Shown piece after piece: positions 15,177 to 39,318 of a stretch of DNA of 64,000 nucleotides (its first letter is position 1; every line of letters starts with the position of its first letter). Below the pieces are notes generated by a model that saw only the letters and a list, made by a program, of their open reading frames with translations, made no database searches and was not told the DNA's origin. The DNA lies in contig NZ_WJXZ01000001.1 in the NCBI RefSeq assembly GCF_009668025.1, positions 935,004 through 999,003 of the forward strand, in the 5' to 3' direction. The position numbers were made by a program, and so were the translations under genes. Source of the stretch: Larkinella terrae (lineage in GTDB: Bacteria; Bacteroidota; Bacteroidia; Cytophagales; Spirosomataceae).

Positions 15177-18100
15177 CTAATTCAATTTATTGTTCAGTAT
15201 ATCGTTCAAATAATCCGAAGGTGATTTGCCAAACTGTTTCTTGAACGACTTGCTGAACGAGGAAGAGCTTTTGAATCCGACTTCGTACGCAATTTCGGAC
15301 ACGTTCAATTTGCGGCCCAGCAGCAGCTCCATCGAATGTTTCAGCCGAATGTAACAGATAATTTCCACCGGCGTCTGGCCCGTAATCGCCTTGAGCCGCC
15401 GGAAAAGGTTGCTGCGGCTCATTCCGACCTGCGTCCCCAGTTCTTCCACGCTGAATTCTTCGTTACTCATGTTCTGCCGGATGCAGTCGATCACTTTTTG
15501 AAGAAACACGTCGTCGAGCGGATTGTGACTCAGATCGTCAGGCATCAAAATCGCGTTTGAACGCAATTTTTCCAGCAATTTCCGCTGTTTTTCGATCAGC
15601 TTTTCGACCCGGATCCGGAGGTAATCCGGCCGGAAGGGCTTGGGTACGTAATCGTCAGCGCCCCACTCGATGCCCCTGATCGCATCCTCCACCGTCGACC
15701 GGGCCGTCAGCAAAATCACCGGAATGTGCAGGGTCGATACCTGCCCCTTCACGATCCGGCACAGCTCAATGCCGTCCATCCCGGGCATCATCACGTCGCT
15801 GATGATCAGATCCGGTTCCCGTTTTCGGATAATGGCCAGCGCTTCCTCCCCATTTTCCGCCTTAAGCGTCTGGTAATCATCCCTGAAAAGCAGGTCCAGA
15901 AACTCGAGCACCTCGTAATTATCGTCCACCAGCAGCAGCGTCGGCCTGTCGTTTTCGTCCTCATCCAGCATCTTGTTCATCAGCGGAACTGTCACCAGGA
16001 GATCGCTCTTTTTCGGTGCTTCGGTAACAAACTGGCTTTCACCGCCCGACTGATTTACCGGTTTTTCTGCCCGTTGATCACCCTCCGTCAGCGGCAAATA
16101 AATTGTAAACGTGGTTGAAACATCCGGTTCGCTTTCGACGGTAATGGTTCCGTCGTGTAAATCCACGATGTTTTTTGACAGCGAAAGGCCCACGCCCGAG
16201 CCGGTTTTGGCGGGATCGGCCTGAAAAAACCGCTCAAAAATATGCTCGATTTCCCGCTGATTTATGCCCTTTCCGTTGTCGTTGATAACGATCCGTAACC
16301 AGCCATTATCCCCGTTTTTATTCGGGACAGTCCCGGTTAATTCAGAGACGGTGTCCATCACAACGCGAATGGTGCCGCCAACCGGCGTGAATTTGAACGC
16401 ATTGGAAAGCAGGTTATTCATTACCATTTCCATCTTGCCCGTATCGACGGCGACCGGATAGTTATCCGATTCCGTATGAACCTGAAAATCTATCTTTTTA
16501 TGGCCCGCCAGCCCGTTAAAATTGGCGGTTATTTCCTCGATAAATGGCACCGCATTGATATCCGCGAATGACAGTTTCAGTTTCCCCTGATCCAGTTTCT
16601 GGAAAGTCATCAATTCATCGACCAGCGAAAGCATTTTTTTGCAGTTTCGATAGACCAGTTGCAGCTTCTGTTTAACGGAAGACGACGTCTGGCCGGAGGT
16701 TAATAAATCTTCCACCGGCCCGACAATCAATGACAAAGGCGTTCGGAATTCGTGGGAAATATCGGTAAAGAACGACAGTTTCATTTTATTCAGATTCTCC
16801 AGTTGTTCGCGCTCCAGCTGATGAAAACGAAGTTTTTCTTTCTGCTTCGACTGAACAATGATGTAGCGGATAAAAAGAAACAGGAGCAGGTTAAAGAGGA
16901 GAACATAAGCCGTGATTGCCCACCAGGTTTTCCAGGGTGGCGGCAAAATGGTGACCTGAATACTACGCGGTTTCGCGTTCCAGTTTCCGAAACTGTTGGC
17001 GGCTTTTACCTTGAAAAGATACGTGCCGGGGTTCAGGTTGGTGTAAGTTGCCGAGCGGTTTGCGGCTCCGGTATACACCCAGTCCTGATCAAATCCCTCC
17101 ATTTTATACGCATAATGATTATTCTCCGGCCCGGAATAATGTAAACCGGCAAAACCAAACGTAAAGACATTGTTTTTGTAGCCCAACGTGATCGCATTCG
17201 TATTGGTAATCGACTGATTTAAAATCACATCACCATTGAATTCAGCGCTAATCGCAACGTCTTTATTGAATAATTTAAGGTCCGTTAATACAACATCCGG
17301 CGCATCCGTCCGATTCGAGATGGTTTTCGGATCAAACAGGATAAAACCGTCCGCAGCACCGAATAATAAATGATTATTGGGCAGTTTATGATAACAACTC
17401 GCGCTGAAACTCAGGTTGGTTAAAAAATGCTGGAATTGTTCCTTCTGCGCATCAAACCGCAGAAGGCCCTTGATCGTACTGATCCACAAAAAACCGTCTT
17501 CGTCAACGATGATTCCATTGACACATTTGTCGGGCAGGCCGTCTTCTTCGAAATACGTTTTGGTTGAATGAATCAGTTCTCCACCCTGATTTTGTTGTAA
17601 CGCTATTTTATGCAAACCCGATTCCGATCCGACCCAAATCGTGTTTTCAGGATACTCGGTAATGGACAGAATCGTATTTCCAATTAGCTTTGTTTTCTGT
17701 CCGGTAAGACTTGAAATTAAACCGGTTTTAGGGTCCAGATAATGAAGGCCGTTATCATCAAAACCGATCCACAAAAGACCCCGGCTGTCTTCGTACAGCG
17801 AGCGAATGAACTTCGACGGAATACTTCCCGGTTTGCCATCCGGCAGATACCGAACGACCGAACCGTCCGGCTGGCATTTGAACAAACCGCCATTGGTGCC
17901 CATCCAGAGATTTGCCTGAGAGTCCTTGAGAAAGGCAAAAACCGCCAGTCCTTTCACGTCCTGAAGGATTTCGGCTTTGTCGGTCAGTTTGACGACCCCG
18001 CCCAGCGTCCCAATCCAGGTGAAACGACCGTCCACCAAAACCGAGCGATTGGCGTTCAGCAGCGAATGTTCCGGCTGAAATTTGAAGCTCTTCGAACTAT

Positions 18101-19322
18101 TTGTATTGACGTCGTACGCGTAAAATCCCGACTTGGCCGTTCCGAAATAAATCGAACTTCCGTCTTCCGTATAAATGCTCCGGATCTGATCCTGATCCTG
18201 GTAATTCGTAAAGGAAAAATAATGAAAGGGCAAGGTATTTAAATCCAGTTTATTCAGGCCCATTTCGGTACCGCACCACAAAACGTGGGTTTTATCCGCG
18301 AAAACTTTAAAAACCATATTTTCGCTTAAACTGTGACTATTGGTCGGATTATTTTTGTAGAATGTCAGTTTAGGAGACGCCGTATCAAACTCTTCTACTT
18401 TGGCTAATCCACGGGCGGTTGCCAGCCAGATCGTATGGGTAGAAGAACGACAAATGTCAAAGATCTGGGTATTTGACAAATCAATGGTTCGATTATTGAA
18501 AAGATTAACCGGTTCGAAGGTTCCCAAACGATTATCACCCGGTTTCCGGTGGTATTTCAGCAATCCATTGGCCGCCGTGGCAATGAACAAATCCTGATTA
18601 TGCTCCAATAAAGACCACAAACGCTCCCCATAAGCATTCGGTTTTAAATTCAGGAAATGGTAGTCGTATTGATCGTTCCTGGGATTATAACGAATGAGCC
18701 CTTCCGCAGCCGCAATCCAGATAAAACCATCCGCCGACTGAATAATTTTACTGATATTCGTATTAAAAGGCGCTTGTTGGTATGCTTTGAATTGCTGAGT
18801 AGCCGGATCGTAACTTGCCAAACCTTTTTTCGTTCCGATCCAGAGTTTACCGGTTTTGTCGAGCAATAGTGAGCGAACTTCCTGATACAAACCGGCATCT
18901 TTGTTGTTAATCAGCGCCGAAAAATGCGTGAATTTTTCCTGTCGGGTATCGAAATAATTCAGGCCCTCCAGCGTCCCGATCCAGAGGTTGTGCGAGCGAT
19001 CTTCGCAAATGGCATTGACCCAATTGCCGGAAATGCTATTCGCTTTTTTGGACTTGAAATACTTTTTAAACGTATATCCGTCGTACTTGCTCAGACCATT
19101 CATGGTGCCCACCCATAAAAAACCGTTACTGTCCTGAAAAACAGAACGAATCCGGTTATCTGGCAGGCCGTTTCGGTTGCTGGTAAATCGCTCGAACAGG
19201 ACATCCGGCCGAACGACGCGTTCCGGTTTAACGTCCAGACCCGGCCCTTCGGTGGCAGCGTATAACGGGCAGATAGCCAGCCCGAAAAATGCCAACAGAA
19301 TGATTGCTTTTAACCTTTTCAT
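15177..19322 (-). CDS. Hybrid two-component system regulator (periplasmic propeller sensor, kinase, receiver, AraC DNA-binding)
   Basis: 1381 residues. Order: signal peptide (1-22); two Reg_prop beta-propellers with repeated NGLPDN and EDSRGLLWIG-type phrases; a Y_Y_Y domain ending around 795 (NRSATYTNLNPGTYLFKVKA); a membrane helix at about 799-823; HisKA with DISHEFRTP (phospho-acceptor His near 857); HATPase (NLLSNAFKFTP, DNGKG, GSGVGLSLS); receiver starting at 1126 with Asp near 1176 (ISDVMMPGMDG) and KPF; and an AraC HTH from about 1276. Such proteins bind oligosaccharide breakdown products in the periplasm and switch on the adjacent polysaccharide locus. It is transcribed in the same direction as the upstream enzyme and susCD genes, 93 bases behind the 1336-residue enzyme gene, and is the best candidate regulator of that locus. 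Confidence 0.95.
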   Translation of the reverse strand: MKRLKAIILLAFFGLAICPLYAATEGPGLDVKPERVVRPDVLFERFTSNRNGLPDNRIRSVFQDSNGFLWVGTMNGLSKYDGYTFKKYFKSKKANSISGNWVNAICEDRSHNLWIGTLEGLNYFDTRQEKFTHFSALINNKDAGLYQEVRSLLLDKTGKLWIGTKKGLASYDPATQQFKAYQQAPFNTNISKIIQSADGFIWIAAAEGLIRYNPRNDQYDYHFLNLKPNAYGERLWSLLEHNQDLFIATAANGLLKYHRKPGDNRLGTFEPVNLFNNRTIDLSNTQIFDICRSSTHTIWLATARGLAKVEEFDTASPKLTFYKNNPTNSHSLSENMVFKVFADKTHVLWCGTEMGLNKLDLNTLPFHYFSFTNYQDQDQIRSIYTEDGSSIYFGTAKSGFYAYDVNTNSSKSFKFQPEHSLLNANRSVLVDGRFTWIGTLGGVVKLTDKAEILQDVKGLAVFAFLKDSQANLWMGTNGGLFKCQPDGSVVRYLPDGKPGSIPSKFIRSLYEDSRGLLWIGFDDNGLHYLDPKTGLISSLTGQKTKLIGNTILSITEYPENTIWVGSESGLHKIALQQNQGGELIHSTKTYFEEDGLPDKCVNGIIVDEDGFLWISTIKGLLRFDAQKEQFQHFLTNLSFSASCYHKLPNNHLLFGAADGFILFDPKTISNRTDAPDVVLTDLKLFNKDVAISAEFNGDVILNQSITNTNAITLGYKNNVFTFGFAGLHYSGPENNHYAYKMEGFDQDWVYTGAANRSATYTNLNPGTYLFKVKAANSFGNWNAKPRSIQVTILPPPWKTWWAITAYVLLFNLLLFLFIRYIIVQSKQKEKLRFHQLEREQLENLNKMKLSFFTDISHEFRTPLSLIVGPVEDLLTSGQTSSSVKQKLQLVYRNCKKMLSLVDELMTFQKLDQGKLKLSFADINAVPFIEEITANFNGLAGHKKIDFQVHTESDNYPVAVDTGKMEMVMNNLLSNAFKFTPVGGTIRVVMDTVSELTGTVPNKNGDNGWLRIVINDNGKGINQREIEHIFERFFQADPAKTGSGVGLSLSKNIVDLHDGTITVESEPDVSTTFTIYLPLTEGDQRAEKPVNQSGGESQFVTEAPKKSDLLVTVPLMNKMLDEDENDRPTLLLVDDNYEVLEFLDLLFRDDYQTLKAENGEEALAIIRKREPDLIISDVMMPGMDGIELCRIVKGQVSTLHIPVILLTARSTVEDAIRGIEWGADDYVPKPFRPDYLRIRVEKLIEKQRKLLEKLRSNAILMPDDLSHNPLDDVFLQKVIDCIRQNMSNEEFSVEELGTQVGMSRSNLFRRLKAITGQTPVEIICYIRLKHSMELLLGRKLNVSEIAYEVGFKSSSSFSKSFKKQFGKSPSDYLNDILNNKLN

Positions 19323-19415: not shown

Positions 19416-22400
19416 TTATTTCGGGTAATAAACAGCCTCGGAATCAGCCCGCTGCGTATTCGTTCGGCGGAACGGCTCGCCCGGTTTCGGATTCCAGTGC
19501 AGCCAGCTATCCGGGTTTGTGGTCAACGGGTCACTCAGCCGACTTTCACCATTTTTGTTGATGGCCGAAACCGCGTATTCATAAACCAGTTTCCCAGTCA
19601 GCGCCGGGTCGTGGAAGGTCGAGTTGGGTCCGGTGTAAACCACCTGAAATTTGCTCGTTCCGGCCAACCGCCGGTACAATTGGTAAGTCGTGCAGCCCAG
19701 CACTTGCCCCCAGTTCAAATTTCCGGTGGCTAAATCCGCTTTCAGGCCGTCGGGGAAATGCGGTTTTTGAGCAATGAAATAAACCGGATAGGCCGGTGAG
19801 GGCTCACTCTGGTGGTCGCGGTTCAGGGCGATAACGCGGACGTGGGCTTTGGCCAGCGTATCCGGTTTCAAAACCGTAAAAGCGGTTTTGGCGGTTTCGC
19901 CCAGCGTCTGCCAGGAATCGCCGTTGTCGCGGCTGATTTCGATGCGATAACCGGCTGCTCCGGCGGAAGGCGTAAAAAACACGGCTGTTTTTCCGTGGTC
20001 ATTTTCCGACGATTGAATGGCCGAACGCACCGGAACGGGCTGCCCCGCCGTCAGTTGCCAGCTGTGCTGCCCCGCCGGAAACGGAATCGAAAAACCGCCC
20101 GCTTTCCATTCCAGCGGCTGTTTTTTTCCGTCGATATACAGCGCAAGGCCCGGCGCAAGGTCACCGTTCCACTGCACCGAAACAGTGGCCGGACGCGGGC
20201 TGAAAAACGTTCCATCCACCCAACCCTTCGGTTTGACCGATGCGCTAAGGCCCGCATCCGTATCACTGACCGTAAGCGTCAAGGTGCCGTTGCCAATCCG
20301 CTGGCCGTGAAACAGCACCAGTTCCTGCCTCCCATCGGGCTGGACCCGAATGAAGCCCGCCGTTCCTGAAAACCGCCATTGATCTTCCTGAAAATCAACC
20401 GGATTGTCGTTTCTGAAAATATAATCCACCTGATTGGCGGGCGTTTTGACCCGGCATCCATAGGCCGTTGGTTCCAAGGCAAACCCTTTTTTGTGCGACA
20501 CAAAAACCGTAAAATCGCCCAGGCCGTCGAACCAGACGCCTTTCGACTCCGCGCCGGTAACCTGGGTTTTGTTTAATTTGTCCCGCCCGGTTCCGACTCG
20601 CACGATTTCCAGCGTCGGCAGGTCTTCGTCGGGGTGCGTGAACCACGAGAACCGCCCGCCGATGTTGTTGTTGTAAACGTCGTCGTAGGTGATAAAATAG
20701 TCTTTATCGACCAACATGATGCTCCGGCTCTGGTAGTCGGGCCAGGCATAACTGCTTTTTTCCGAGGACGTAATTTCCGTAAACTGGCCGATGCCGAGGT
20801 TGTAGAGCGGTCGGTGCAGCCCGTTCATGCCGATCGACTTGAAATGGCCGTCCTTGAAAACGCCGAAATTGGTCATCAAATCGGTGTCCTGCACCTTGCG
20901 GTCGCCAACATCCTCGCGGCCGTTGTGGCTGTACGATTTGCCCCCGGCGTAAAAATAAATACCGCCCGTGCCGCCCTGTGCCGGAACACCCCAGCGGTAA
21001 TTCGGCCCCTCGTCGATCTGGCTCAGGTGAACGGAAAGCTCCTCCGGCGTATCGACGCCCGCGCGCAGAATGGTCCCGTAACCAGTCAGCTTGATGCTTT
21101 TGAAATCCGGTTTTGTTCCCCGGTCATACCGTCCTTTTGGGTACATGACCTGCTGAAAAGCTTCGTGGCTGGCGTAAAACGCTTCCTGATCGTCGTCGGT
21201 CGGTTTGGCAACATACCGCAAATGCTCGGCCAAAAGCGGATCGTAATGGTTCAATAAATTCCCGAGCATCCAGAGCGAACTCGGCGCTTTCCGGCGGGCG
21301 GCATGGGCGCCCTGCGGAGGATGAATCCGGCGCGGCCCTTCCGGTTTGGTCACGATGCCCCAGAAGTGATAGTCCAGGCTACCGTTCGGATTACGGTAAA
21401 AATCCAGCGATTCGCCATTGTACGGAGCGGATAATGCGTTCAGAATCCAGTTGCCGATGGCGCTCACCTGCGGCCCCGCCAGACGGTTTTTGCCCGGCTG
21501 TGACTGGTTCAGCAAAAACGACGCCCGGATCGTGGACCGAAAAAAGCCCCAGACGTAGGTGCCCAGGTTTTCCGTCCAGCGACCGCCCTGCGCACCCCAG
21601 GTTTTCACCGTGGGGCGGGTGTGGTAATGCGTATTCAAATCCACGTACTTTTCGAACAGATCGGCCCAGTTGGCAGCCTCGGGGTGGTTCGGAAACTGGT
21701 AGGCCGTCATGGCCGGAATGCTTTTCACATCGGCCAGAAAGTTGGGATGCCCGCTGAGCATGTACCGCATCGGCATGTATTCCTCGTCGGCGGCCACGTA
21801 GGTATGAAACAGGAACATGGCCGTCACGCGGGCTTTCTCGTCCGGGTTCAGGGCGGGGTAAAACCGGTTCAGGGCGTCGATCCATTTCTCGAAAAACTGC
21901 CGGGCGGGCACCGGGCCGTAGCCGCTGTTCTGCCGGGTTCCGCTGAAAGGCAACTCCGAGACGTAATAATTGCCCAGGAAATCCCGAATAAAATCCGCCC
22001 TGGTGTTGAGTTTGCCTTCCTGGAACAAAACCGGGGCTGCGGGCAGCGAGTCCGGGTAGGTCAGCTGCCAGTTTTTGATTTTGTCGAGGTGAATCGTGCC
22101 GTAGCGGTTTTGCAGAAACGCGTTGTACGAAAGCTGCGAAATTTCGGCCTTGTAGGTAAAGCCGAACGGGTGTTGCTGAGGCTGATTTTTCGTTTCCAGC
22201 TCGTTCATGTACGCAATGTCCTGCTGATGCGGATAGCAACTCAAGGCAACCGACCGACTGCCTTCCGAAACCGGAAATTCCCAGGAAAGCAGCTTATTGC
22301 GGTAGAAAAACCGGATGTTCAGGATGCGGGATGAGTGCCAGATGCTGTAATCGCTGTCGTTCCAGCCGCTCAGATCGTTGGCAAAAACGCCGACCGACTG

Positions 22401-23426
22401 CCCGGTTTTTTCGTCCCAGAACAGCGTGGACGTTACGGTTCGTTCGGCCGGCCAGGGTTCAAACATCCCGATTTCGAACGGGATTTTTCCGACTTCGCCG
22501 TCGGGCATGATGCCGTGGTGGTAATTCAGTTTCGTCTGGTCGATGGTTTCCCAGTTGAATCGCCCAAAACCGGGGCTGGCACTGTAGGTTTGCTGCTGCG
22601 GGCTGGCTCCGGCCGTCGTGACGGTGCCGGGTCGGCCAAAGGGATGGTTCGGTGCCTGCCGATGCGTGGGCTGAAACTGGGTCCAGTCGAGCCGCCAGTG
22701 CACGTTGTCTTCCGGTTGGAGGCCGGTCATTTCTTCCCGGATTTCCAGAAAATCGTAGCCCTGAATGCATTTCACCGTTGCTTTGTACGAAGCCCCGCTA
22801 GCGAAGCGGTAAGTAATTCGGTACGTTACAAAAAGCGGCCCGGCCGACAGTTGTTCCGTTTCGATTTTCTGCACTTTTTTAGTTTTTGTTACGAGTTCCG
22901 ATTTTCCCATCGCCGATTTCCCCGCCTGAAAAAGCTGCATCACCGGCCCCGGAACCGGCCCGGAAGCGGGCAAGGAAGCCGGAATCCGAACGCTTAGTTT
23001 ATCCGTCCGAATCAGAATCGTTTCACCTTCTTTCGTTTCGCTCAGCGAAATTGCCGACGGCGTCGAATTTCCCGGCGTCAATACGAACGTTCGGGTTCCG
23101 CCGGATGGCAGGTCACTGAGCACACTGAGGGTGGTCAGCGTTTTTCCGTCCGGCGTTTTCCGAAAGTCCGAAAACTGGAAGGGTACGGTTTTTTCCGATT
23201 CTTTTTCGACCAGACTGAAGTCCTTCGCATCGACCGGCTGATCGAACTGAACCGGGTAATTCAGCAGCGTCCGGGGCCACCAGTAAAACGGATGCCGCAA
23301 CTGGTCTTTCAAGACAAAAACCGCCTGTCCGTTTTCAAAACGAACCGGCGGAGTGGTCGCCAAAGCGGCTGAGAACGGAATCAGAAGCAGACCGACCCAT
23401 AAGCGGCATTTTAACAGGTACTTCAC
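19416..23426 (-). CDS. Large secreted enzyme-like protein of the polysaccharide locus, unknown family, with C-terminal FN3 repeats
   Basis: 1336 residues with a signal peptide (cleavage near ALAT, residue ~24). The N-terminal third is strand-rich; the middle (about 550-850) is helix-rich and aromatic (NWADLFEKYVDLNTHYHTRP, WTENLGTYVWGFFRSTIRASF), like an alpha/alpha toroid; then a long beta-sandwich region with KSYSHNGREDVGDRKVQ and YFITYDDVYNNN, which recalls the C-terminal sheets of heparinase-type lyases. Two fibronectin III domains follow (FTPSAGAAGYRIEISRDNG and LNWGQVLGCTTYQLYRR). The layout suggests a polysaccharide lyase or hydrolase acting outside the cell, but I cannot place it in a CAZy family. 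It lies downstream of the susCD enzymes, 93 bases ahead of the regulator gene. Confidence 0.6.
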   Translation of the reverse strand: MKYLLKCRLWVGLLLIPFSAALATTPPVRFENGQAVFVLKDQLRHPFYWWPRTLLNYPVQFDQPVDAKDFSLVEKESEKTVPFQFSDFRKTPDGKTLTTLSVLSDLPSGGTRTFVLTPGNSTPSAISLSETKEGETILIRTDKLSVRIPASLPASGPVPGPVMQLFQAGKSAMGKSELVTKTKKVQKIETEQLSAGPLFVTYRITYRFASGASYKATVKCIQGYDFLEIREEMTGLQPEDNVHWRLDWTQFQPTHRQAPNHPFGRPGTVTTAGASPQQQTYSASPGFGRFNWETIDQTKLNYHHGIMPDGEVGKIPFEIGMFEPWPAERTVTSTLFWDEKTGQSVGVFANDLSGWNDSDYSIWHSSRILNIRFFYRNKLLSWEFPVSEGSRSVALSCYPHQQDIAYMNELETKNQPQQHPFGFTYKAEISQLSYNAFLQNRYGTIHLDKIKNWQLTYPDSLPAAPVLFQEGKLNTRADFIRDFLGNYYVSELPFSGTRQNSGYGPVPARQFFEKWIDALNRFYPALNPDEKARVTAMFLFHTYVAADEEYMPMRYMLSGHPNFLADVKSIPAMTAYQFPNHPEAANWADLFEKYVDLNTHYHTRPTVKTWGAQGGRWTENLGTYVWGFFRSTIRASFLLNQSQPGKNRLAGPQVSAIGNWILNALSAPYNGESLDFYRNPNGSLDYHFWGIVTKPEGPRRIHPPQGAHAARRKAPSSLWMLGNLLNHYDPLLAEHLRYVAKPTDDDQEAFYASHEAFQQVMYPKGRYDRGTKPDFKSIKLTGYGTILRAGVDTPEELSVHLSQIDEGPNYRWGVPAQGGTGGIYFYAGGKSYSHNGREDVGDRKVQDTDLMTNFGVFKDGHFKSIGMNGLHRPLYNLGIGQFTEITSSEKSSYAWPDYQSRSIMLVDKDYFITYDDVYNNNIGGRFSWFTHPDEDLPTLEIVRVGTGRDKLNKTQVTGAESKGVWFDGLGDFTVFVSHKKGFALEPTAYGCRVKTPANQVDYIFRNDNPVDFQEDQWRFSGTAGFIRVQPDGRQELVLFHGQRIGNGTLTLTVSDTDAGLSASVKPKGWVDGTFFSPRPATVSVQWNGDLAPGLALYIDGKKQPLEWKAGGFSIPFPAGQHSWQLTAGQPVPVRSAIQSSENDHGKTAVFFTPSAGAAGYRIEISRDNGDSWQTLGETAKTAFTVLKPDTLAKAHVRVIALNRDHQSEPSPAYPVYFIAQKPHFPDGLKADLATGNLNWGQVLGCTTYQLYRRLAGTSKFQVVYTGPNSTFHDPALTGKLVYEYAVSAINKNGESRLSDPLTTNPDSWLHWNPKPGEPFRRTNTQRADSEAVYYPK

Positions 23427-23767
23427 TTAAAAAAACAGGGTTTAGGAATAAAGGAAATTCATTCAGCTCAAATCATGTATTGCGGACCGTTTGAGAAAAG
23501 ATGAAAGAATAAATTAGTGATTTTTAACCAATTAGTCGTTTATCTTTTCTCTTTCATCTTGATATAATCTGATAGCTGATCATTCGGTTGATTAAGTGCC
23601 ACAGGTACGACATATTTGTAGTAACCCTGGCTACTTGAGGCCTATCGCGTGCCTTCAGGTACGCAATTGGCAGTGCCCGTTGCGTACCTGAAGGCACGCG
23701 TGATTTTATACTTACACTTTTCTACAAACATTTGACCGCTAAGCGGTCGATATTCTCTTCGCCCGGA
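23427..23767. other. 341-bp gap with two inverted repeats
   Basis: No gene seen. It contains an imperfect hairpin (23498-23513 with 23539-23560) and a perfect 21-bp hairpin (23646-23666 with 23680-23700, listed separately). It separates the SGNH gene from the 1336-residue enzyme gene, so the latter may have its own promoter here. Confidence 0.6.
23646..23700. repeat. Perfect 21-bp inverted repeat
   Basis: Arms 23646-23666 and 23680-23700 (CGCGTGCCTTCAGGTACGCAA-type) are exact complements around 13 bases. No T-run follows on either side, so it is more like a palindromic repeat element than a terminator. It sits between two leftward genes. Confidence 0.75.
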
Positions 23768-25072: not shown

Positions 25073-27028
25073 TTATTTGGCCGGGCGCGGGATGGTGCCT
25101 TGCGGATTCCTTTTCACCACGGGCAGGCTGGCGGTCCAGTCGACCTGAATCGTTGACGGTCCGGTTTGAATGGCCAGTAAACGGTTGTCCATCCGGATAA
25201 CCGGGCTTTCGATCATCGGCCACTGGTCCGCAGACTTTTCCGGTTTGCCATTGACCCAGATCAACGGCACTGAGCGGGCCAGTCCGTCGGCGTCCACCGG
25301 CAAACCCGGTTGGTATTGCATCCGAATTTTAGCGCCTTTTGAGTTCTGATAAGTGAGAACCATCGTGTTCCAGTCGACCGAAACCGGGTTGCGGGGCAAT
25401 TGGCTCACAAATTTTTGGAAACTACCGAAATCGGCTTCCGTTCCCACTTCAAAAATAAAACCGGTTTTTGGCCCTTCGCTTTTGACGACGTTGAATCCTT
25501 CCAGCCCCTTTTCGGTCAGGTTGGTGTGGAGAACGTACGGTTTCAGTGGTTTGATGCCGATGTACGTTTTCCCTTCCCGGAGGAAAAGCCAGCCGCCCGT
25601 TTCAACTTTTTCGTCGACGGATTTCGGATACCGCAACGCGCCCCAGTTCAGCAGGTTATTGGCGTGGCCGTCGCGCCAGGCCCATTTTTCCTTGCTGGGC
25701 TGGTTGGGCCAGGGGTCTTTCTGCGGAATGTCGAACAGCATGATTGCGGTATTCTGTTCCTGCGCGGTCTGCTGAAAAGGCGAAACCGTGCCTTTGTGCC
25801 AGGTGTCGGGCGTGCGGTCCGGGTGGTCGCCGTCGCTGTACCAGTACGGGTGGAAGCAATTCAGGTAATTGAACCGGTCGGTGCTGCTCCAGACGATGTT
25901 GAACCCGTTGGCATCGTGGTCGGCGTAATCGCCCCCCGGCACCCAACGGAAATTGCCGCTGCCAATCGCGTATTGCTGCGTCCGGTACCCATTCCGCAAC
26001 ATCATGTGCGGCCGGGCCCGCTCCCCGGCGTAGGGGCCAAAGGTCGAAGCCGATGATTTCAGCGCAAAAGGGGCGGTTTTTCCTTCCGCCAGCCCGAAAA
26101 AAACCGCATCCGGAATGACGTTGGAAAGCGCGGTGTAAATGGCGTAGCTGGTTTCCCAGTAATTCGTAAAATCCTGAATTTTAACGGATTCGGTGTTTGG
26201 CCCCCAGCCCCAGTACAGCCAGTTCTGGTAGAGCGTGCCGGTTACGTACGGGTCTTTGGGCTGGTAATCTTCCTGGGTATTCATCCGGCCATAAGGGGCC
26301 AGCGTGCGGCCTTCAAAATTATTCAGGGCCTGCAACGACCATTTGTAGAGCAGATACGCTTCGGCGATGGCTTTCATCTCCGGGTCCTGCGCAAACTCCT
26401 GCAAAATCGCCACCGGGAAATTCATCGTAATCTCGTAGGTCGTTGAGAGGTATTCCGTGTAGCCTTTGGCGTAGACGTTTTTAAAGGTTTTGCGCAGCCG
26501 CTCCTTCATCTCGGCCATCAGTTGGGCGCTGGTCATGCCGTTGGCCCACTTCGCGTCCGGAAAATACTGCCCGAACAGGTAGGCACTGGTCCACATCATG
26601 GTGGCGTGGTTTTCGGTACCGTGGCCCAGAAATCCTTCCCCGTCTTTTTTATCTTCTTTGGCCAGCCGTTCGGCATCTTTCTGAATTACCGCAACCTGTT
26701 CCGACGTAAAACAATGCCGAAACCGCCCCAGGGCCAGCGCAACGCCCGGAAAATCGAACATCGTTTGCTGCGGATGGTGCAGGATGTTGGTGATGTAGTT
26801 GATCGCGACGGTGTCTTTCGGGTTGTTCCAGAGCCGGGCGCAGGCTTTGGGCAGGTTGTGTTTGCCCCGCGTGCTGCTATCCGCCACCAGGCGGGCATCG
26901 TGCAGGCCTTTTAGCAGCCATTGCCGACGGTTTTCGAACGTAGATAGATCCTGCGCCGGGAGCATTCCCGAAACCAGTACACCAAAAACCGCTAAAAACC
27001 ACCCTGTTTTCGTCTGTTTACCTTTCAT
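25073..27028 (-). CDS. Secreted lyase-like enzyme (alpha/alpha toroid plus beta-sandwich) of the polysaccharide locus
   Basis: 651 residues with a signal peptide ending near PAQDL. The first half is helical, with TENHATMMWTSAYLFGQYFPD around residue 145-165 and YLSTTYEITMNFPVAILQ around 207-225; a paired Asn-His plus a later Tyr is the catalytic arrangement in several alpha/alpha-toroid polysaccharide lyases. The second half is strand-rich (QQYAIGSGNFRWVPGGDYADHD, MLFDIPQKDPWP, GWLFLREGKTYIGI), like a lyase beta-sandwich. A lyase cleaving uronic-acid-containing chains by beta-elimination is the best guess, though the exact CAZy family is not recognised. It starts 10 bases after the susD gene, so it is co-transcribed. 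Confidence 0.6.
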   Translation of the reverse strand: MKGKQTKTGWFLAVFGVLVSGMLPAQDLSTFENRRQWLLKGLHDARLVADSSTRGKHNLPKACARLWNNPKDTVAINYITNILHHPQQTMFDFPGVALALGRFRHCFTSEQVAVIQKDAERLAKEDKKDGEGFLGHGTENHATMMWTSAYLFGQYFPDAKWANGMTSAQLMAEMKERLRKTFKNVYAKGYTEYLSTTYEITMNFPVAILQEFAQDPEMKAIAEAYLLYKWSLQALNNFEGRTLAPYGRMNTQEDYQPKDPYVTGTLYQNWLYWGWGPNTESVKIQDFTNYWETSYAIYTALSNVIPDAVFFGLAEGKTAPFALKSSASTFGPYAGERARPHMMLRNGYRTQQYAIGSGNFRWVPGGDYADHDANGFNIVWSSTDRFNYLNCFHPYWYSDGDHPDRTPDTWHKGTVSPFQQTAQEQNTAIMLFDIPQKDPWPNQPSKEKWAWRDGHANNLLNWGALRYPKSVDEKVETGGWLFLREGKTYIGIKPLKPYVLHTNLTEKGLEGFNVVKSEGPKTGFIFEVGTEADFGSFQKFVSQLPRNPVSVDWNTMVLTYQNSKGAKIRMQYQPGLPVDADGLARSVPLIWVNGKPEKSADQWPMIESPVIRMDNRLLAIQTGPSTIQVDWTASLPVVKRNPQGTIPRPAK

Positions 27029-27038: not shown

Positions 27039-28445
27039 TCAGTAGCCCGGATTTTGTTTCAACACACCCTGCATTTTGTCGATTTCCGTCTGCGGCAGCG
27101 GAAACAGCAGCCAGTTCTCGTTCGCGTTCAGGCCAATGGCTTTCAGGGCCTCAACGGCGGTGCCGGTCCGGACCAGATCGAACCAGCGGACGCATTCAAA
27201 CATCAGTTCACTGCGCCGTTCTTTCTGCATCGCCACCCGGAAACTGGCCAGATCCGGCACCTGAGCGGGCGTCAGGTCTTTCAAACCGGCCCGTTTCCGC
27301 ACCTGATTCAACAACGCGAGCGACTCGGTGTTTACTTTTCCGTCTACTTCCGACAACACTTCCGCATGTAGCAGCAGCACATCCGTGTACCGCTGGACAG
27401 GAAAATCCATGCCCGATTCGGTCGAAGCGCGGTCGTAACCGTAATCGAACTTGGTGTTGTTCAGTGCTTCAATCCTGGTTCCTTCCAGCGTGGTGAATTC
27501 CTTCGCGATGTTGAAATCCCGGCGGAGGTCGCCCGTTTCGTAGGATTCGTACACACCCTTTTCAAACACCGGATTGCCGCCGTAAGCCGGGTTAAACTGC
27601 CGCTGGTACTGCGTGCTTTCGCCAATCCCGCCGATTTTAAACTTCGCCCCCAGAATCACCTCCTTGCCGCGCTCGTTTTCCAGCGAAAAAATCTCCGCGT
27701 ACGTCGGCGCAAAGGCATACTGACCGCTTTTGATGACACTTTCCAGCAGCGGTTTGGCGTCGGCCCAGTGGTTTTCCTTCAGCGGAACACCGCTCATGGT
27801 GATGTAGGCCCGGGCCAGTTCCACTTCGGCGGCCTGTTTCGAAATCCGGCCGTTCTGAGCCGCTGTGAGGGTCGCGGGCAACGCTCCGATGGCCGCCGTC
27901 AGGTCCTTCGTAATCTGGCCGTACACCTCCTTGATCGGCGAACGTCCGATTAGCAGGGCCTCGCTGGTGGAAACTTCTTTCAGCACCAGCGGTACATCCC
28001 CGAAAATCCGGACGAGGGCGAAATACCCGTACGCCCGAAAAAACTGCGCTTCCCCTTTGATCCGGTTCCTGACGGCTTCATCCATCGAAACGGCGTCGAT
28101 GCGTTCCAGAATGAGGTTCGAATACGTAATCATCTGGTACATCGTGTTCCACATCGTGGAGGTCGTGTTCGACTGAAACGTGTTGTTACTGATCTCGGCG
28201 TACGAATACATGATGTGGGTGTAGGTGTCGGCCCGAAACTCGTTGTACTCGGTCCACATCGTCGAGTGAACGCCCTGAAAGACGTTGTAAACACCCACAA
28301 TCGCCGTCTCGAAATCCTTCTGGCTTTTGTAGAAGGAGTTGAGGTTAGCCGACGAAATCGGATTCAGGTCGATAAAGTCTTCTTTGCAGGCCGTCTGGCT
28401 CAAACTTAGCGCGGCCGCAACCAGTAAAATCGAATATTTTTTCAT
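27039..28445 (-). CDS. SusD/RagB family glycan-binding lipoprotein (pair 1)
   Basis: 468 residues from Met at 28445, chosen to put the signal peptide and lipobox (SQTACKEDFIDL) at the N-terminus; the longer frame to 28469 gives an unlikely leader. SusD features include the SANLNSFYKSQKDFETAIVGVYN segment (early helices), GEAQFFRAYGYFALVRIFGDVPLV, and the C-terminal ERRSELMFECVRWFDLVRTG with LLFPLPQTEIDKM. SusD proteins sit on the outer surface as lids over SusC receptors and bind oligosaccharides. The gene starts 20 bases after the susC stop, followed by the lyase-like gene after 10 bases. Confidence 0.92.
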   Translation of the reverse strand: MKKYSILLVAAALSLSQTACKEDFIDLNPISSANLNSFYKSQKDFETAIVGVYNVFQGVHSTMWTEYNEFRADTYTHIMYSYAEISNNTFQSNTTSTMWNTMYQMITYSNLILERIDAVSMDEAVRNRIKGEAQFFRAYGYFALVRIFGDVPLVLKEVSTSEALLIGRSPIKEVYGQITKDLTAAIGALPATLTAAQNGRISKQAAEVELARAYITMSGVPLKENHWADAKPLLESVIKSGQYAFAPTYAEIFSLENERGKEVILGAKFKIGGIGESTQYQRQFNPAYGGNPVFEKGVYESYETGDLRRDFNIAKEFTTLEGTRIEALNNTKFDYGYDRASTESGMDFPVQRYTDVLLLHAEVLSEVDGKVNTESLALLNQVRKRAGLKDLTPAQVPDLASFRVAMQKERRSELMFECVRWFDLVRTGTAVEALKAIGLNANENWLLFPLPQTEIDKMQGVLKQNPGY

Positions 28446-28465
28446 GATGCTGGACGGTTTAGGAA

Positions 28466-31400
28466 TCAAAACGTGACGTTCAAACCCAGAATGAAGGTGC
28501 GGGCGAGGGGGTAGGAGCCATAGTCGCCACCGGGCGCCAGCGGGTTACCGCTCCGGGTGTTGACTTCCGGATTGTAGCCCACATCGTATTTGTCGACGGT
28601 CAGCAGGTTTTCGCCGGTCGCATACAGCCGGATACGGCCCGCTTTGATTTTCCGGGATACGGTTTTGGGTACGTTGTAGCCCAGCGAAACGTTCTTAATC
28701 CGCCAGAAACCGCCATCGTACAAATGCCGTGTGGTGTATTGCGAACTGGCGCCTGTCACCAGTTCCGAGGCCGCCGGGGTGGTACCGTCGCCCGGTTTTT
28801 CCGGTGATTGCCAGCGGTTTACCCAGTTTTGGTAGTGATTTTTCTGGCTATCCGACGGCCCGTTGAATTCCCGCCCGATGTCGTTGAAAATCTTGTTGCC
28901 CCCCAGGCCGTAGATCAGCACGCTCAGATCAAACCCGGCGTAGGAAAACCGGTTGGTAATCCCGAAATAGTATTTGGGCTGATTCTGGCCCACAATTGTC
29001 CGGTCGTCGATGTTGATTTTGCCGTCGCCGTTCACGTCCTTAATCCGCACATCGCCGGGCTGCGAACCCGCCCAACTGGGGCTGGCGGCAATTTCTTCCT
29101 TCGTGTTCCAGATGCCTTCCTGCACCAGCATGTAATATGCGCCGATCGGCTGGCCGACCTGCGTGATGTTCACCTGCCCCCACCAGTCTCCGCCGATGAT
29201 TGGCGCGTTGCCCGGACCCAGTTGCAGTACCCGGTTTTTGTTGAACGACAGGTTCAGGTTGGTATTCCACTGAAATTTGCCGACGAGGTTTTTGGTGGCT
29301 ACCTCAAATTCCCAGCCCTTGTTTTCGACCCGGCCCAGGTTGCGCAACTCCGAACTAAAACCGGTAACGGTCGGCACCGGCACGTTCAGCAGCAGGTCTT
29401 TCGTCTGGTTGTTGTAATAATCGATGGACGCATAAATCCGGTTTTGCCACACGCCCACATCCAGCCCGATATCGGTGCTCGTGGTGGTTTCCCAACTCAG
29501 GTTGCGGTTCGAGATCGAGTTCGGGTACATGCCCACCGTCACGGCCTCGTCCGTTCCGAACAGATACGCCGACTGGCCCAGTAAACCGACCGCGCCGTAA
29601 TTGGGAATGTTGTTATTGCCGGTCGTTCCCCGGCTGGCCCGCAGCTTCAGATCGCTCAAAACCGGTACGGATTTCATAAAAGCCTCTTCCGAAATCCGCC
29701 AGCCGATGGAAGCCGCCGGAAACCAGCCCCATTTGTTGTCGGCTCCAAACCGCGAACTGCCGTCGCGCCGTAAACTCGCGCTGATCAGGTACTTGTTGTC
29801 GAAGGCGTAGTTGACCCGCCCCAGGTACGACAGCAACGACCATTCACTTTCGTTGGTGTTGCCCTGGGTGATTTTGCCAGCGGCATTGAGGGTCGGTACC
29901 AGGTCGTTGGCAAAGTTTTCCCCCCGCAGATAGCCCGACTGGTCGTTCTGCCGTTGCGACGTAAAACCGGCCAGCGCCGTGATGCTGTGCTTGGTGTTAA
30001 TGGTCGTCGCGTAATTCAGGATGTTCTCATTCAACCAGTTTAAGCTGACGGTATTCCAGCTTTCGCCGATCGGGGCGCGGGTGCGGGAGATGATCTGGTT
30101 CTCAAACCGGTCGCGCTTGGTGCTGATGTAGTTGGCGCCAAAACTCGTTTTGAAACTGAGCCCTTTCGCCAGTTTGACGGTTGCAAATACGTTGGCCAGC
30201 ATCTGGCCCCGGGTTTCTTTGTCGATCAGATTTTCGACGCGCGAAACGACGTTGGCTCCTCCATCCCAGGACACGGAATAATCCGTGTATTCCGGCGATT
30301 CGCCCCAGATACCGGTGCGGATTGGCAGGAACGGATTCGCGTACAGAATGGTGTGCAAAACGCCCCCTTTGCCTTCCGTATCGCGGTCGTTGCTGACGGA
30401 GTAAGAGGGCGTCAGGTTCAGGCCAACATTCAGATAGTCATTGACATCCACCGAGACATTCGTCCGGAAAGAATACCGGGTATAATCGGTATTTTTCACG
30501 ATCCCATCCTGCTTGAAATAATCGGCCGAAACGAGGTATTTCGCTTTCGCACTGCCGCCGGATGCCGTAATCTGGAAGTCCTGCATGGGGGCTGTGCGGT
30601 AGGGCCATTTCTGGTGATTGTAGTACGGCACGTTCGCCGGATTGGTTTTCCAGACCGGATCGTACTGGTAATTGCGGGGCCGGGTGGCCATCGGCGCGTT
30701 CGGATCACCGCCGGTTTTGACCCAGGCGCGGTCGCGGCCATCCACCAGCATCGACAGCCATTCCGTGGTGTTCATCATCGGAATCAGGCGCTCGACGTTC
30801 TGAATCCCGGCATAGGCTTTCACGTCCAGTTTCAGATCCCCGGCCTTGCCCTGTTTAGTCGTGATGATGACGACGCCGTTGGAGCCCCGCGACCCGTAAA
30901 TCGAAGCCGAAGCGGCATCTTTCAACACCTCAATGGATTCGATGTCGCTCAGGTTCATGTTCGCGAAAGTGGTCGCATCGATCGGAAAACCGTCTACGAC
31001 GTACAGCGGATTGGCCCCCGCCGAAATCGAGCCGATGCCCCGCACCTTAATTTCGGCGGCTTTGCCCGGCCGACCACTCGGCTGTTGCACCTGCACCCCG
31101 GCCAGTTGCCCCTGCAACGCCTGATCGACGCGCGCAACGGGCCGCACCTGCAAGTCTTCCCCACCCACTTTGGCAATGGCGCTGGTGACGTCGCTTTTGC
31201 GCTGCGTGCCGTAGCCCACCACCACCACTTCCTCCAATGATTTGGTATCGGTGAGCAGACTGACATTGATGGTGGATTTGCCGCCCACGGGCACTTCCTG
31301 ATTGATAAAGCCGATGTAGGAAAATACCAGCGTGCTGCCGGCACCGGGTACCGAAAGCACGTAATTGCCCTCGGCATCCGTCACGGTTCCATTGGTGGTT

Positions 31401-31594
31401 CCTTTGACGATGACCGTGACGCCGGGCAACGATTTGCCGTCGCTCTGGGAGGAAACCGTCCCTTTGACGGGATTGGTAACCTGCGCGTGAACGGATTGGA
31501 AAACCGCCAGAACGGTTGCGAAAAGGAGCATGATTCGACGGACACCGACCTGGTCGGTGAGCAGTCGATGAAGGTGGTACAGCGTTGTGTTCAT
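28466..31594 (-). CDS. SusC/RagA family TonB-linked outer-membrane receptor (pair 1)
   Basis: 1042 residues. Signal region, then a carboxypeptidase-like beta-sandwich (about 40-125: GTVSSQSDGKSLPGVTVIVKG, TDAEGNYVLSVP), TonB box EEVVVVGYGTQ near 124-134, plug with EIKVRGIGSISAGANPLYVVDGFP and EVLKDAASASIYGSRG, and a barrel closing in ARTFILGLNVTF. It imports oligosaccharides with SusD pair 1. A shared upstream block at 31634-31701 matches the one of the other susC gene; the two SusC proteins are also alike in their N-terminal third (for example IGFINQEVPVGGKS versus IGFVSREITIGGKT), so they are recent paralogues. Confidence 0.94.
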   Translation of the reverse strand: MNTTLYHLHRLLTDQVGVRRIMLLFATVLAVFQSVHAQVTNPVKGTVSSQSDGKSLPGVTVIVKGTTNGTVTDAEGNYVLSVPGAGSTLVFSYIGFINQEVPVGGKSTINVSLLTDTKSLEEVVVVGYGTQRKSDVTSAIAKVGGEDLQVRPVARVDQALQGQLAGVQVQQPSGRPGKAAEIKVRGIGSISAGANPLYVVDGFPIDATTFANMNLSDIESIEVLKDAASASIYGSRGSNGVVIITTKQGKAGDLKLDVKAYAGIQNVERLIPMMNTTEWLSMLVDGRDRAWVKTGGDPNAPMATRPRNYQYDPVWKTNPANVPYYNHQKWPYRTAPMQDFQITASGGSAKAKYLVSADYFKQDGIVKNTDYTRYSFRTNVSVDVNDYLNVGLNLTPSYSVSNDRDTEGKGGVLHTILYANPFLPIRTGIWGESPEYTDYSVSWDGGANVVSRVENLIDKETRGQMLANVFATVKLAKGLSFKTSFGANYISTKRDRFENQIISRTRAPIGESWNTVSLNWLNENILNYATTINTKHSITALAGFTSQRQNDQSGYLRGENFANDLVPTLNAAGKITQGNTNESEWSLLSYLGRVNYAFDNKYLISASLRRDGSSRFGADNKWGWFPAASIGWRISEEAFMKSVPVLSDLKLRASRGTTGNNNIPNYGAVGLLGQSAYLFGTDEAVTVGMYPNSISNRNLSWETTTSTDIGLDVGVWQNRIYASIDYYNNQTKDLLLNVPVPTVTGFSSELRNLGRVENKGWEFEVATKNLVGKFQWNTNLNLSFNKNRVLQLGPGNAPIIGGDWWGQVNITQVGQPIGAYYMLVQEGIWNTKEEIAASPSWAGSQPGDVRIKDVNGDGKINIDDRTIVGQNQPKYYFGITNRFSYAGFDLSVLIYGLGGNKIFNDIGREFNGPSDSQKNHYQNWVNRWQSPEKPGDGTTPAASELVTGASSQYTTRHLYDGGFWRIKNVSLGYNVPKTVSRKIKAGRIRLYATGENLLTVDKYDVGYNPEVNTRSGNPLAPGGDYGSYPLARTFILGLNVTF

Positions 31595-31851: not shown

Positions 31852-33480
31852 CTATTTATAGTTCGGGTTTAGGTTTGCTTCTTCCGCCGGAATGCGCCAT
31901 TTCCAGTTGGTGTAGGGAGCGTCCATTGCAGAAATCGTCGTGCGATCGGCGGCTGGAATCGGCATCCGGGTACTCATCATAAAGTCGAGCGTCCAGCCTT
32001 CGCCCGACATTTCGCGCAGGTACTCCGCCAGAATTGCGTCGTGATTCACGTTTGCGGTTGTGTAGCGGTTCAGGCCGGTCGGATTCGCCCGGTTCCAGAC
32101 TTTGTTGAGGTCAGCAACCGCTCCGGCAGAATCCCCGGCTTTCCAGCGGAGCCAGGCCCGGCTCAGGTACAAATCCGCCAGCCGAATGGTCGGAAATTTC
32201 GTATACCGACCGTCGCCCGGTCCACCCCGGAAATACTTGTCGACGTAAATCTGCGGTTTGTTGACGGCCGCGTGGGCGCTCAGCGTCTCGTACAGCAACG
32301 GGTCGCCCGTCGGGTTGTAGGCCAGCAGCGGGTAGTAGAGTTGCTGAAACCGCAAATCGCTTTTGGCCGCGTCGGTTACCGTGTAATCGCCCCGTGTCGC
32401 GTCCTTCATCCAACCCATTTTGTCCAGCGCCCAGTAACTCATCGTGAACTGGTTCCAACTGCTTTTGACCATATCTTTGCCGCGTCCACCGTTGTCGGCA
32501 TCCCGGAAGTTGAGCGAAATGATCATGCCGTAATACATGTAATTGGACGCGCCCCCGATGGCCGGATCGCCCGTGTTGTGTTCCCAGACCGCTTCTTTCG
32601 GTATGGTTTTGACCACGTTTTTATTGAACGCTTCCAGCGGAGCTTCGAGCGCAAAGCGGTTTTCTTTTTCGGCGGCATCGAGCACAATGGTCAGTTCCTG
32701 CTGGGCTTTCGTGTAATCACCTTTCAGGAATAGAACCTTTCCCAGCAAAGCTGCCGCCGTGTACTGGGTCGCCCGGCCCACTTCGTAAGTCGGCAGCATG
32801 GTCGCGGAATTGAACGCTTTCGGCAGTTTGGCTTTAGCGGTTTCCAGATCGAAAATGATCAGGTTGTAGATTTCTTCGGTCGAACCCAGTTTTTCGGCAA
32901 AAACCGCTTCTTTCGAGGTCGGAACCGTCGTTTTGAACGGAATGTACGCGCCCGAGTTGTTTCCGCCCGGGTTGTAGGGTGGCGCAAATATTTTGATCAG
33001 ATTCCAGTAGGCATACGCCCGCAGGAAGTAATATTCGCCGAGCTGCCGGACGTAATTGTCCTTGTAATCGGTGCCGTCCGTCTTCAGCGTGAACGGATTG
33101 CCAGCCTTTTCCCTGTCCAGTTCAATCGCCATGTTGCAGAGCGTAATGGCCTGATAAGCAAACTTCCATAGCTCGTTGTTGTGGCTGACATTCTGGTCGA
33201 ACTGCCAGAAATACATTTCGTTCCAGGCCACACTGGTGGAAGTCTGGGGCAAGAGCTGGGCCGCGCCCGAGCTGGCAAAATCGCGCATCTGGTTCACGCC
33301 CTGAAAACCGTTGCTGTAGGTGAGCGCAAAATACGCCGACGACAAGCCCTGGTCGAAGGTCGTGGTGTTGACCCACTGCGTTTCCTGCGGGCGTTTCAGT
33401 TCGAAAAACTCATCCTGCTTGCAGGCGTGGGAACTGACAAGGAGAATCGCTGCAAAAATATAAACGAGTGATTTTTTCAT
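31852..33480 (-). CDS. SusD/RagB family glycan-binding lipoprotein (pair 2)
   Basis: 542 residues from Met at 33480; the frame open to 33492 adds only four residues and overlaps the susC stop. Lipobox SSHACKQDEF. SusD features: GLSSAYFALTYSNGFQGVNQM early, YVRQLGEYYFLRAYAYWNLIKIFAPPY in the middle (the TPR-like helices), and a C-terminal LYLSRAWLRWKAGD and LREMSGEGWTLDFMMSTRMPIP, the receptor-contacting end. Works with the adjacent SusC. It is followed by a strong terminator at 31815-31841, so this pair forms its own transcript, without enzyme genes of its own. Confidence 0.92.
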   Translation of the reverse strand: MKKSLVYIFAAILLVSSHACKQDEFFELKRPQETQWVNTTTFDQGLSSAYFALTYSNGFQGVNQMRDFASSGAAQLLPQTSTSVAWNEMYFWQFDQNVSHNNELWKFAYQAITLCNMAIELDREKAGNPFTLKTDGTDYKDNYVRQLGEYYFLRAYAYWNLIKIFAPPYNPGGNNSGAYIPFKTTVPTSKEAVFAEKLGSTEEIYNLIIFDLETAKAKLPKAFNSATMLPTYEVGRATQYTAAALLGKVLFLKGDYTKAQQELTIVLDAAEKENRFALEAPLEAFNKNVVKTIPKEAVWEHNTGDPAIGGASNYMYYGMIISLNFRDADNGGRGKDMVKSSWNQFTMSYWALDKMGWMKDATRGDYTVTDAAKSDLRFQQLYYPLLAYNPTGDPLLYETLSAHAAVNKPQIYVDKYFRGGPGDGRYTKFPTIRLADLYLSRAWLRWKAGDSAGAVADLNKVWNRANPTGLNRYTTANVNHDAILAEYLREMSGEGWTLDFMMSTRMPIPAADRTTISAMDAPYTNWKWRIPAEEANLNPNYK

Positions 33481-33491
33481 GACCGGTGACA

Positions 33492-36400: not shown

Positions 36401-36686
36401 AAACAAAACCGATATAGGAAAACACCAGCGTGCTGCTGCGATCCGCGACGGAGAGGGTGTATTTCCCGTTGGCATCCGAAACCGTCCCGTTGGTTGTGCC
36501 TTTGACCACCACCGTGACGCCGGGTAGCGCATTGCCGTCACTTTGGGAGGTCACCACGCCGGTTATGACCAAACCGGGGCCTTGTGCCCGCGCAGCCGGA
36601 GCGGCAAATACTGCCCAAATCAGGGCATATAAAAAGAGGACGCACAGGTAACCTGCCTGGCGTGAGGAGTAGACATTTTTTCGCAT
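33492..36686 (-). CDS. SusC/RagA family TonB-linked outer-membrane receptor (pair 2)
   Basis: 1064 residues. Signal peptide ends near ARAQG; the carboxypeptidase-like domain (VVTSQSDGNALPGVTVVVKG), TonB box DEVVVVGYGTQ near 130-140, plug (EIKIRGKNSINLNTSPLWIVDGVP and EVLKDASATAIYGNRG), and barrel ending RSLNFGLSTNF. Its susD partner starts 12 bases downstream. The first 200 residues closely resemble the SusC of pair 1, and the upstream 68-bp block is shared, so the pairs probably arose by duplication and are switched on together. Paired transporters in one locus often handle different chain lengths or side-chain variants; that is inference here. Confidence 0.94.
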   Translation of the reverse strand: MRKNVYSSRQAGYLCVLFLYALIWAVFAAPAARAQGPGLVITGVVTSQSDGNALPGVTVVVKGTTNGTVSDANGKYTLSVADRSSTLVFSYIGFVSREITIGGKTAIDVTLAADTKSLDEVVVVGYGTQKRADIVGSIAKISSADLTKVPTTSVAEAMQGMASGLYISNTSGHPGSSPEIKIRGKNSINLNTSPLWIVDGVPIQTGSLDLTVGGVKPVSPLAMLNPNDIESIEVLKDASATAIYGNRGSNGVVIVTTKSNKGNQTGISVNYDGGVSQLPFRQSDIYVDSKTWWQLIDKAWANAGNTTTLQPKSITDVVFLDEKPTISRDEALATNTDHLAAMTQQSRFHQAGFTARKGFQTGGIMFSLNYRDEKGLLRNNDFKRLTTRFNFTFSPVKSVEVGINSNFLYVKNLGIPASEGKGGAGWGNLPAMLPWYKLYDPNSQTGYWVPSSGYNGLASVDRNLIRNSADQYRTITNAYLRWNLPVSGLSLRSEAGVDLLINNSSNWRSIFLDADAPFQNQATERSITQQVFNYNTYLNYDRTFNKHTFGVTAGAEATRTSSYTRQASGTQIYSNYPELRNPLQITDADGFMSGEQYLMGMFGRVNYKFNERYILNTSIRRDGHSALSKDNRWATFKAIGAGWIISDEKFAKIPGVSLLKLRGSYGQTGNTSLSNEMTQLTWGLSSNRYGGGYLPGGTTLGPIGSTALKWETTTGLDVGLDFGFLGDRISGSVAYYSKSVSDLILRGNVPVSVGFANNQIWENVGDLKNWGWEFNVSTVNVNKGGFRWSTDFNISYNDNKIIRLNEFEKGKGAETVATNSGKGTSTIRKEGERLDTWYLANFVQIDPAKGIAMIEELNKDQWNTAFVTEATGKLIPMNQANVNANKMVQHGKSALPRFFGGMTNRVSYRNFDLNVLFAFAGGHYLMNWLYSRSTKDQEGTGQIAKAVVGKSWEKPGDVAQFPQLRWGSRYPYDNNGEPSSAGSNFNTDFTTFFLEKASYVKLRNVQLGYTLPNTLAKKAGLQSTRFYIGGTNLLTFTKFRGLDPESNDDLPIPRSLNFGLSTNF

Positions 36687-38600: not shown

Positions 38601-38611
38601 TTTGTAAAAAG

Positions 38612-39181: not shown

Positions 39182-39189
39182 CGTTTCCT

Positions 39190-39305: not shown

Positions 39306-39318
39306 CCAACCCACTATT

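Follow-up and report, generated by a model that had tools for sequence, protein, structure and literature searches.

The 64-kb stretch of the Larkinella terrae genome analysed here (the window) carries on its minus strand, at positions 19416..23426, an open reading frame (ORF) with a GTG start that encodes a protein of 1336 amino acids. This protein is likely to be secreted and to act as a polysaccharide lyase, a member of the superfamily in which an α-toroid is followed by antiparallel β-sheets (kin of the heparinase II/III, PL39 and PL40 enzymes), and to belong to a clade of its own. Its assignment as a lyase, taken by itself, is fairly likely. It is supported by the fold, the residue conservation and, indirectly, the gene neighbourhood, from which we infer the reaction, the roles of individual residues and the class of the substrate. 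The clade is probably a new family, or a deep clade, of toroid polysaccharide lyases, “new” being meant relative to Pfam, NCBIfam and the PDB and not proven relative to CAZy. A previous reading of the window from its sequence only had delimited the same ORF exactly, without giving its strand, and had suggested a new polysaccharide lyase or hydrolase family. Our results support this proposal and favour the lyase because of the fold, the retained Asn, Glu and Tyr residues and the neighbouring genes of the GH88 type. The ORF is not a chance frame, since it can be aligned over its full length with four relatives of its bacterial family (36–88% identity).

Fold and relatives of the protein

The protein is organized as follows:

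N-terminus: putative signal, assigned by eye
about residues 25–400: β-sandwich (predicted model)
about residues 434–761: α-toroid (predicted model)
about residues 778–1126: antiparallel β-sheets (predicted model)
about residues 1130–1300: two FN3 domains (fn3 in relatives and match to a solved FN3 domain)
C-terminal end: conserved tail

The putative signal peptide was judged by eye from the hydrophobic N-terminus (...AALATTPP), after which a lipobox Cys is absent. No described family of Pfam or NCBIfam covers the protein, in agreement with the sequence-only reading, which could name none. Searches in Pfam, NCBIfam and PADLOC yielded only sub-threshold matches to fn3 (Pfam, E 0.036) and GH85_C, both within the FN3 part and the weaker of the two at chance level. 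The Hepar_II_III region and DUF4962, Pfam assignments described for the PL39 enzyme Dp0100 (PMC10056287), were not reported for the protein. The two FN3 domains, also proposed previously, are supported by Pfam fn3 matches in 17 of 37 relatives (best E 1.5e-7) and by a solved FN3 domain in the PDB that matches residues 1220–1295 (E 0.016). Beyond fn3, matches of these relatives in the family libraries are weak and scattered; Hepar_II_III_C of Pfam was found in a single one (5.9e-4), a member of the sister group described below.

The AlphaFold2 model of residues 25–1128 (predicted local distance difference test (pLDDT) 89.7; predicted template modelling score (pTM) 0.90) consists of a β-sandwich, an α-toroid and antiparallel sheets, the toroid-then-sheets order by which membership in the superfamily was judged. 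The toroid-like middle noticed in the earlier reading corresponds to the helices of this model, and its heparinase-like β-sheet region is recovered by the predicted fold and also by sequence through the sister group. The model was compared with solved structures using Foldseek and VIA-align; the ranks given here hold among the matches listed. Foldseek placed PL39 Dp0100 first (E 1.4e-13), followed by PL26 and then by PL12 enzymes. The 15 entries with the highest Z (17.1–25.1) are all polysaccharide lyases by title, VIA-align giving Z 25.1 for HepC (4mmi; 463 residues aligned, 5.1 Å), 24.5 for Dp0100 (6jpn; 591 residues, 3.9 Å) and 18.7 for the PL40 enzyme Uly1040 (9vtk; 526 residues, 4.2 Å). 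The N-terminal sandwich alone resembles domains of PL26, GH38 mannosidase and galactose mutarotase (Z about 14), while the best matches of the toroid and sheets are the polysaccharide lyases PL39 Dp0100 and the PL12 heparinases. The predicted fold is that of a lyase toroid with antiparallel sheets, closest to PL39 and PL12.

A scan of species genomes identified 47 loci (L007–L053). The 34 close relatives (L007–L040) are found in Bacteroidota, Verrucomicrobiota, Acidobacteriota and Bacillota, the nearest named one being that of Larkinella rosea (87% identity); the 13 distant loci (L041–L053) belong to Armatimonadota (seven), Planctomycetota (three) and Verrucomicrobiota (one), two having no taxon name. 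The clade was defined by 32 rows, the window and 31 loci, excluding L014, whose contig is truncated, L021, which nearly duplicates L020, and the fusion L036, and the sister group by 11 rows, with L046 and L052 left out; set A5 further lacks the near-duplicates L024, L026, L028, L030 and L040. In the 43-row tree, which is midpoint-rooted and has several long sister branches, clade and sister group lie on opposite sides of one branch with support 100/100. Their profiles are homologous over 973 columns, N-terminal sandwich included (hhalign E 1.1e-75). The sister group is expanded and has no model in Pfam: one metagenome-assembled genome (MAG) of Armatimonadota (JAKPKV01) holds four of its genes (L042, L048, L050 and L051), and a further relative adjoins two sister genes (L041 and L042).

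The protein is rare. It occurs in five of 222 genomes of its bacterial family, its own included, after removal of an FN3-only match (G195; six before), and across the phylum a profile trimmed of the FN3 part found one of 395 genomes, its own. The 57 of 395 obtained with the full-length profile was rejected as a measure of spread: besides the own genome, every listed place starts at profile position 1108 at least, within the FN3 part. No relatives were found on viral contigs, searched with six short peptide patterns, or on plasmids.

Searched against PDB sequences, the sister profile matched Dp0100 (3.1e-8), Atu3025 (7.6e-8), which we take to be a PL15 enzyme, and BT4657 heparinase III (4.5e-7). 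Dp0100 was found by sequence only with this profile or with one that includes the sister group; used as a single query, the protein did not retrieve it up to E 10. The clade profile had no direct match to HepC, BT4657 or PL26, and no Pfam match to PL26 was seen in the protein or its 37 relatives. Uly1040 was matched by neither the clade, the sister nor the combined profile, the presence of 9vtk among the searched sequences being unconfirmed. The comparison covered Pfam, NCBIfam and the PDB, not CAZy, and families without a solved structure would escape it. The protein might therefore belong to an existing CAZy lyase family or to the CAZy unclassified set (e.g., PL37, PL38), only this copy being new. 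We consider this rather unlikely, as no description of such a protein was found in the literature searched, which does not prove its absence, and an enzyme that is presumably of the PL37 type is set apart by its description, which gives a toroid followed by a β-sandwich and no N-terminal sandwich.

Putative active site

Conservation was read from MAFFT columns, the pairing with PL39 from a HMMER alignment and that between profiles from hhalign. Three segments of the minus strand, assigned by alignment, are proposed to contribute to the active site:

21738..21743, minus strand: Asn562-Phe563, counterpart of the PL39 Asn-His pair, putative carboxylate neutralization
21555..21572, minus strand: Glu619 to Tyr624 (ENLGTY), Tyr624 being the putative catalytic acid
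20985..21002, minus strand: Asn809-Tyr810-Arg811-Trp812 and neighbours, Tyr810 being the putative catalytic base where PL39 has His405

Asn562, Glu619, Tyr624, Arg700, His708, Asn809, Tyr810 and Arg811 are invariant in all 32 clade rows. The stretches GHPNF, RWTEN and GPNY of the protein match PL39, whose motifs are PRPHNH, YREG, RYLLF and ADNH (PMC10056287). In PL40 Uly1040, carboxylate neutralization falls to Asn245 and Trp246, Tyr305 acts as the acid and the base is His485, which Asp358, His487 and Mn tune; the corresponding set of Dp0100 is His405-Asp288-His407-Mn (PMC12915356). The position of Asn562 is also Asn in 10 of the 11 sister rows and that of Phe563 is Met in nine. Two features set the protein apart from PL39 and PL40. 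The first is that Glu619 and Tyr624 are spaced by five residues throughout the clade. The sister spacing, counted by eye, is four in eight of 11 rows and five in L049, L041 and L042 having Ser for Glu; in the hhalign comparison Tyr624 is aligned with the Tyr of the sister group.

The second difference lies at the base. The clade has NYR[WT]G in 32 of 32 rows, Tyr810 lying opposite PL39 His405 in the HMMER alignment and opposite His in most sister rows by MAFFT (His 7, Tyr 3, Cys 1). A motif search located a His with an acidic, Gln/Gly-rich stretch after it in nine of 11 sister rows, and by eye the remaining two (L043 and L045) have it as well. Position 707 is Ala in the entire clade and Asp (6), Asn (3) or His (2) in the sister group. 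These differences suggest at the sequence level that in the clade Tyr took the place of a His/Asp base; the chance that Tyr810 is the catalytic base is about even.

The lack of the PL39-type His pair, together with the likeness of the N-terminal sandwich to the β domains of GH38 mannosidases and to galactose mutarotase, could indicate a glycoside hydrolase, or else a fold reused for binding after the loss of catalysis. This is improbable: the likeness is confined to the N-terminal part whereas toroid and sheets match lyases, and the polar residues of the lyase site are invariant across four phyla, unlike a decayed site.

Gene neighbourhood and substrate

The gene is the seventh of eight consecutive minus-strand genes (SusC, SusD, SusC, SusD, 651-aa protein, GDSL esterase, candidate lyase and hybrid regulator), listed here by increasing coordinate:

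15177..19322, minus strand: hybrid two-component regulator (propeller sensor, kinase, receiver and AraC-type DNA-binding domain)
19416..23426, minus strand: candidate polysaccharide lyase, 1336 aa
23768..25042, minus strand: GDSL/SGNH esterase, probable sugar deacetylase
25073..27028, minus strand: secreted 651-aa protein, fold not assigned
27039..28469, minus strand: SusD-like protein
28466..31594, minus strand: SusC-like TonB-dependent transporter
31852..33492, minus strand: SusD-like protein
33492..36686, minus strand: SusC-like TonB-dependent transporter

Family-library matches confirm the SusCD, esterase and regulator genes of the sequence-only reading as two SusC, two SusD, a GDSL esterase and a hybrid two-component regulator. 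Its lyase-like enzyme, the 651-aa protein, considered as a second lyase because of TENH and Tyr motifs seen by eye, was not upheld: it has no match in Pfam, NCBIfam or the PDB, no likeness to the lyase family and a model of pLDDT 49. The best solved relative of the esterase is 6hfz (E 7.5e-19), which we take to be an acetyl-mannan esterase.

Neighbours were counted at 33 loci (L007–L040 without L021), some of them on short contigs. Genes of the GH88 type, whose enzymes remove the unsaturated uronates made by lyases, are found near 14 of them, and Pfam confirms all four that were checked. For the 21 loci with genome GH88 counts, they were seen at 11 versus 0.86 expected at random (genome sizes rounded), and at eight of 17 versus 0.64 when four near-copies are omitted. 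GDSL relatives are present at seven of the 33 loci, in addition to the window. Beta-helix proteins akin to one fused in Pedobacter occur at 12 loci (Pfam in three of three checked); in that fusion (Pedobacter sp. MC2016-15, L036 7553-13567) the relative of the candidate lyase stands behind a beta-helix domain of the pectate-lyase/rhamnogalacturonase type. From the GH88-type neighbours and the GDSL esterase, the substrate is probably an acetylated, uronate-containing polysaccharide.

If PL39 and PL40 are taken as a guide, a chain containing uronate would bind in the cleft that lyases of this fold have between toroid and sheets (PMC12915356). Asn562 would neutralize the carboxylate of the +1 sugar and Tyr624 would donate a proton to the leaving oxygen. 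Proton abstraction at C5 would fall to the residue that occupies the position of PL39 His405, here Tyr810, possibly helped by His708, Arg700 and Arg811 instead of the His-Asp-His-metal set. A 4,5-unsaturated uronate would be left on the product, to be removed by the GH88-type enzymes encoded beside many relatives; the GDSL enzyme would probably deacetylate the same glycan and the fragments would be taken up by SusCD.

Several observations weigh against this assignment. The clade’s own profile has no match among PDB sequences at E up to 10, so that its sequence link to lyases is transitive, through the sister group, the structural link being direct. The place of PL39 His187 is occupied in the clade by Phe (29 of 32), Met (2) or Ile (1). 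When the C-terminal part is aligned alone, hhalign shifts the gap and Tyr810 is not opposite the sister His; residues 812–816, which adjoin Tyr810, have low confidence in the model. The GH88 excess is overstated and in part to be expected, given the general abundance of sugar enzymes in such clusters and the several near-copies among the loci, and the window’s own cluster has no GH88 gene, five being located elsewhere in the 7.85-Mb genome. Finally, the same fold also houses an epimerase, human dermatan sulfate epimerase (6hzn; Z 16.8, 495 residues aligned, 4.2 Å), and removal of the C5 proton is the first chemical step common to it and the lyases. A uronyl C5-epimerase with a related active site is nevertheless very improbable: 6hzn is outranked by the 15 lyase entries, and the clusters that contain the gene serve transport and breakdown and include esterases and, at many loci, GH88-type genes.

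We give slightly less than an even chance to the most far-reaching proposal: an undescribed family in which the sister-group base, His-Asp-(His-metal), gave way as a unit to Tyr810 with Ala707-His708 and Arg811, probably cutting an unrecognized acetylated uronate glycan met by several phyla. If true, a polysaccharide lyase family without a characterized member is gained, and a His-to-Tyr change of the catalytic base becomes testable between two related clades, because the homologous sister group keeps ancestral-looking residues. Such a family would further indicate that Larkinella, Paenibacillus, Coprobacter and Verrucomicrobiota use an acidic polysaccharide with a breakdown route that is so far unmapped.

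In Larkinella rosea the 651-aa protein and the GDSL esterase form a single 1037-aa ORF (L007 6845-9958), a fusion that links them in function. The gap between esterase and candidate lyase genes (23427-23767) measures 341 bp in the window versus 42 bp in L. rosea. It contains a palindrome with 27-nt arms at 23646-23700 (DNA fold z-score −8.4), whose core has 23 genome copies at up to two mismatches (control 1), and the stretch around it recurs about a dozen times as diverged copies of 160–170 bp; this is a small palindromic repeat element whose kind was not assigned. Positions 23493-23560 of the same gap, 68 bp with 78–81% identity to three other places in the genome, are apparently a different repeat. 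Elsewhere in the window, a second polysaccharide cluster (45965-55132) encodes SusC, SusD, a Hepar_II_III_C protein and an esterase, adjoined by a LacI-type regulator (44719-45720). The Hepar_II_III_C protein (51173-53128) was rejected as a family relative, having no real likeness to it (0.5% probability in profile comparison). A chemotaxis-like signalling group (37488-43619) comprises CheB and CheR proteins and two hybrid or response-regulator kinases.

Comparison with known lyases

The PL39 alginate lyase Dp0100 (6jp4, 6jph and 6jpn) shares with the protein the toroid and antiparallel sheets, and the Asn, Glu and Tyr of its PRPHNH and YREG motifs have counterparts in the clade. It differs by the absence of the ~380-residue β-sandwich that the L. 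terrae protein carries in front, by His187, replaced by Phe563, and by its base His405, opposite Tyr810 in the HMMER alignment, a pairing that carries some doubt. The clade does not match PL39 directly by sequence, and of the Asn-His pair it has the Asn in 32 of 32 rows and never the His. PL12 heparinase III and HepC (5jmd, 5jmf, 4mmh, 4mmi and 4fnv; Z 23.2–25.1) also have toroid and sheets and a weak sequence match through the sister group (BT4657), but no direct one to the clade, and no N-terminal sandwich was reported in the aligned range. In PL40 Uly1040, toroid and sheets and the roles of Asn, Glu and Tyr are comparable (PMC12915356); it has an Asn-Trp pair and a His-Asp-His-Mn base where the L. 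terrae protein has Asn-Phe and probably Tyr.

The PL26 exo-rhamnogalacturonan lyases (5xqg, 5xqo, 5xqj and 5xq3; Z 14.4–14.8, about 300 residues aligned) share the order of a β-sandwich followed by helices. They are the second-ranked Foldseek family, with 824–846 columns aligned at a low TM-score (0.21–0.22), and the VIA-align match does not involve the catalytic toroid-sheet pair because its ranges end at model residues 425–524. The sister group, mostly from MAGs of Armatimonadota and Planctomycetota, is homologous to the clade up to and including the N-terminal sandwich, and is distinguished from it by a base-position His, by Asp in six of 11 rows where the clade has Ala707 and by Met in place of Phe563 in nine.

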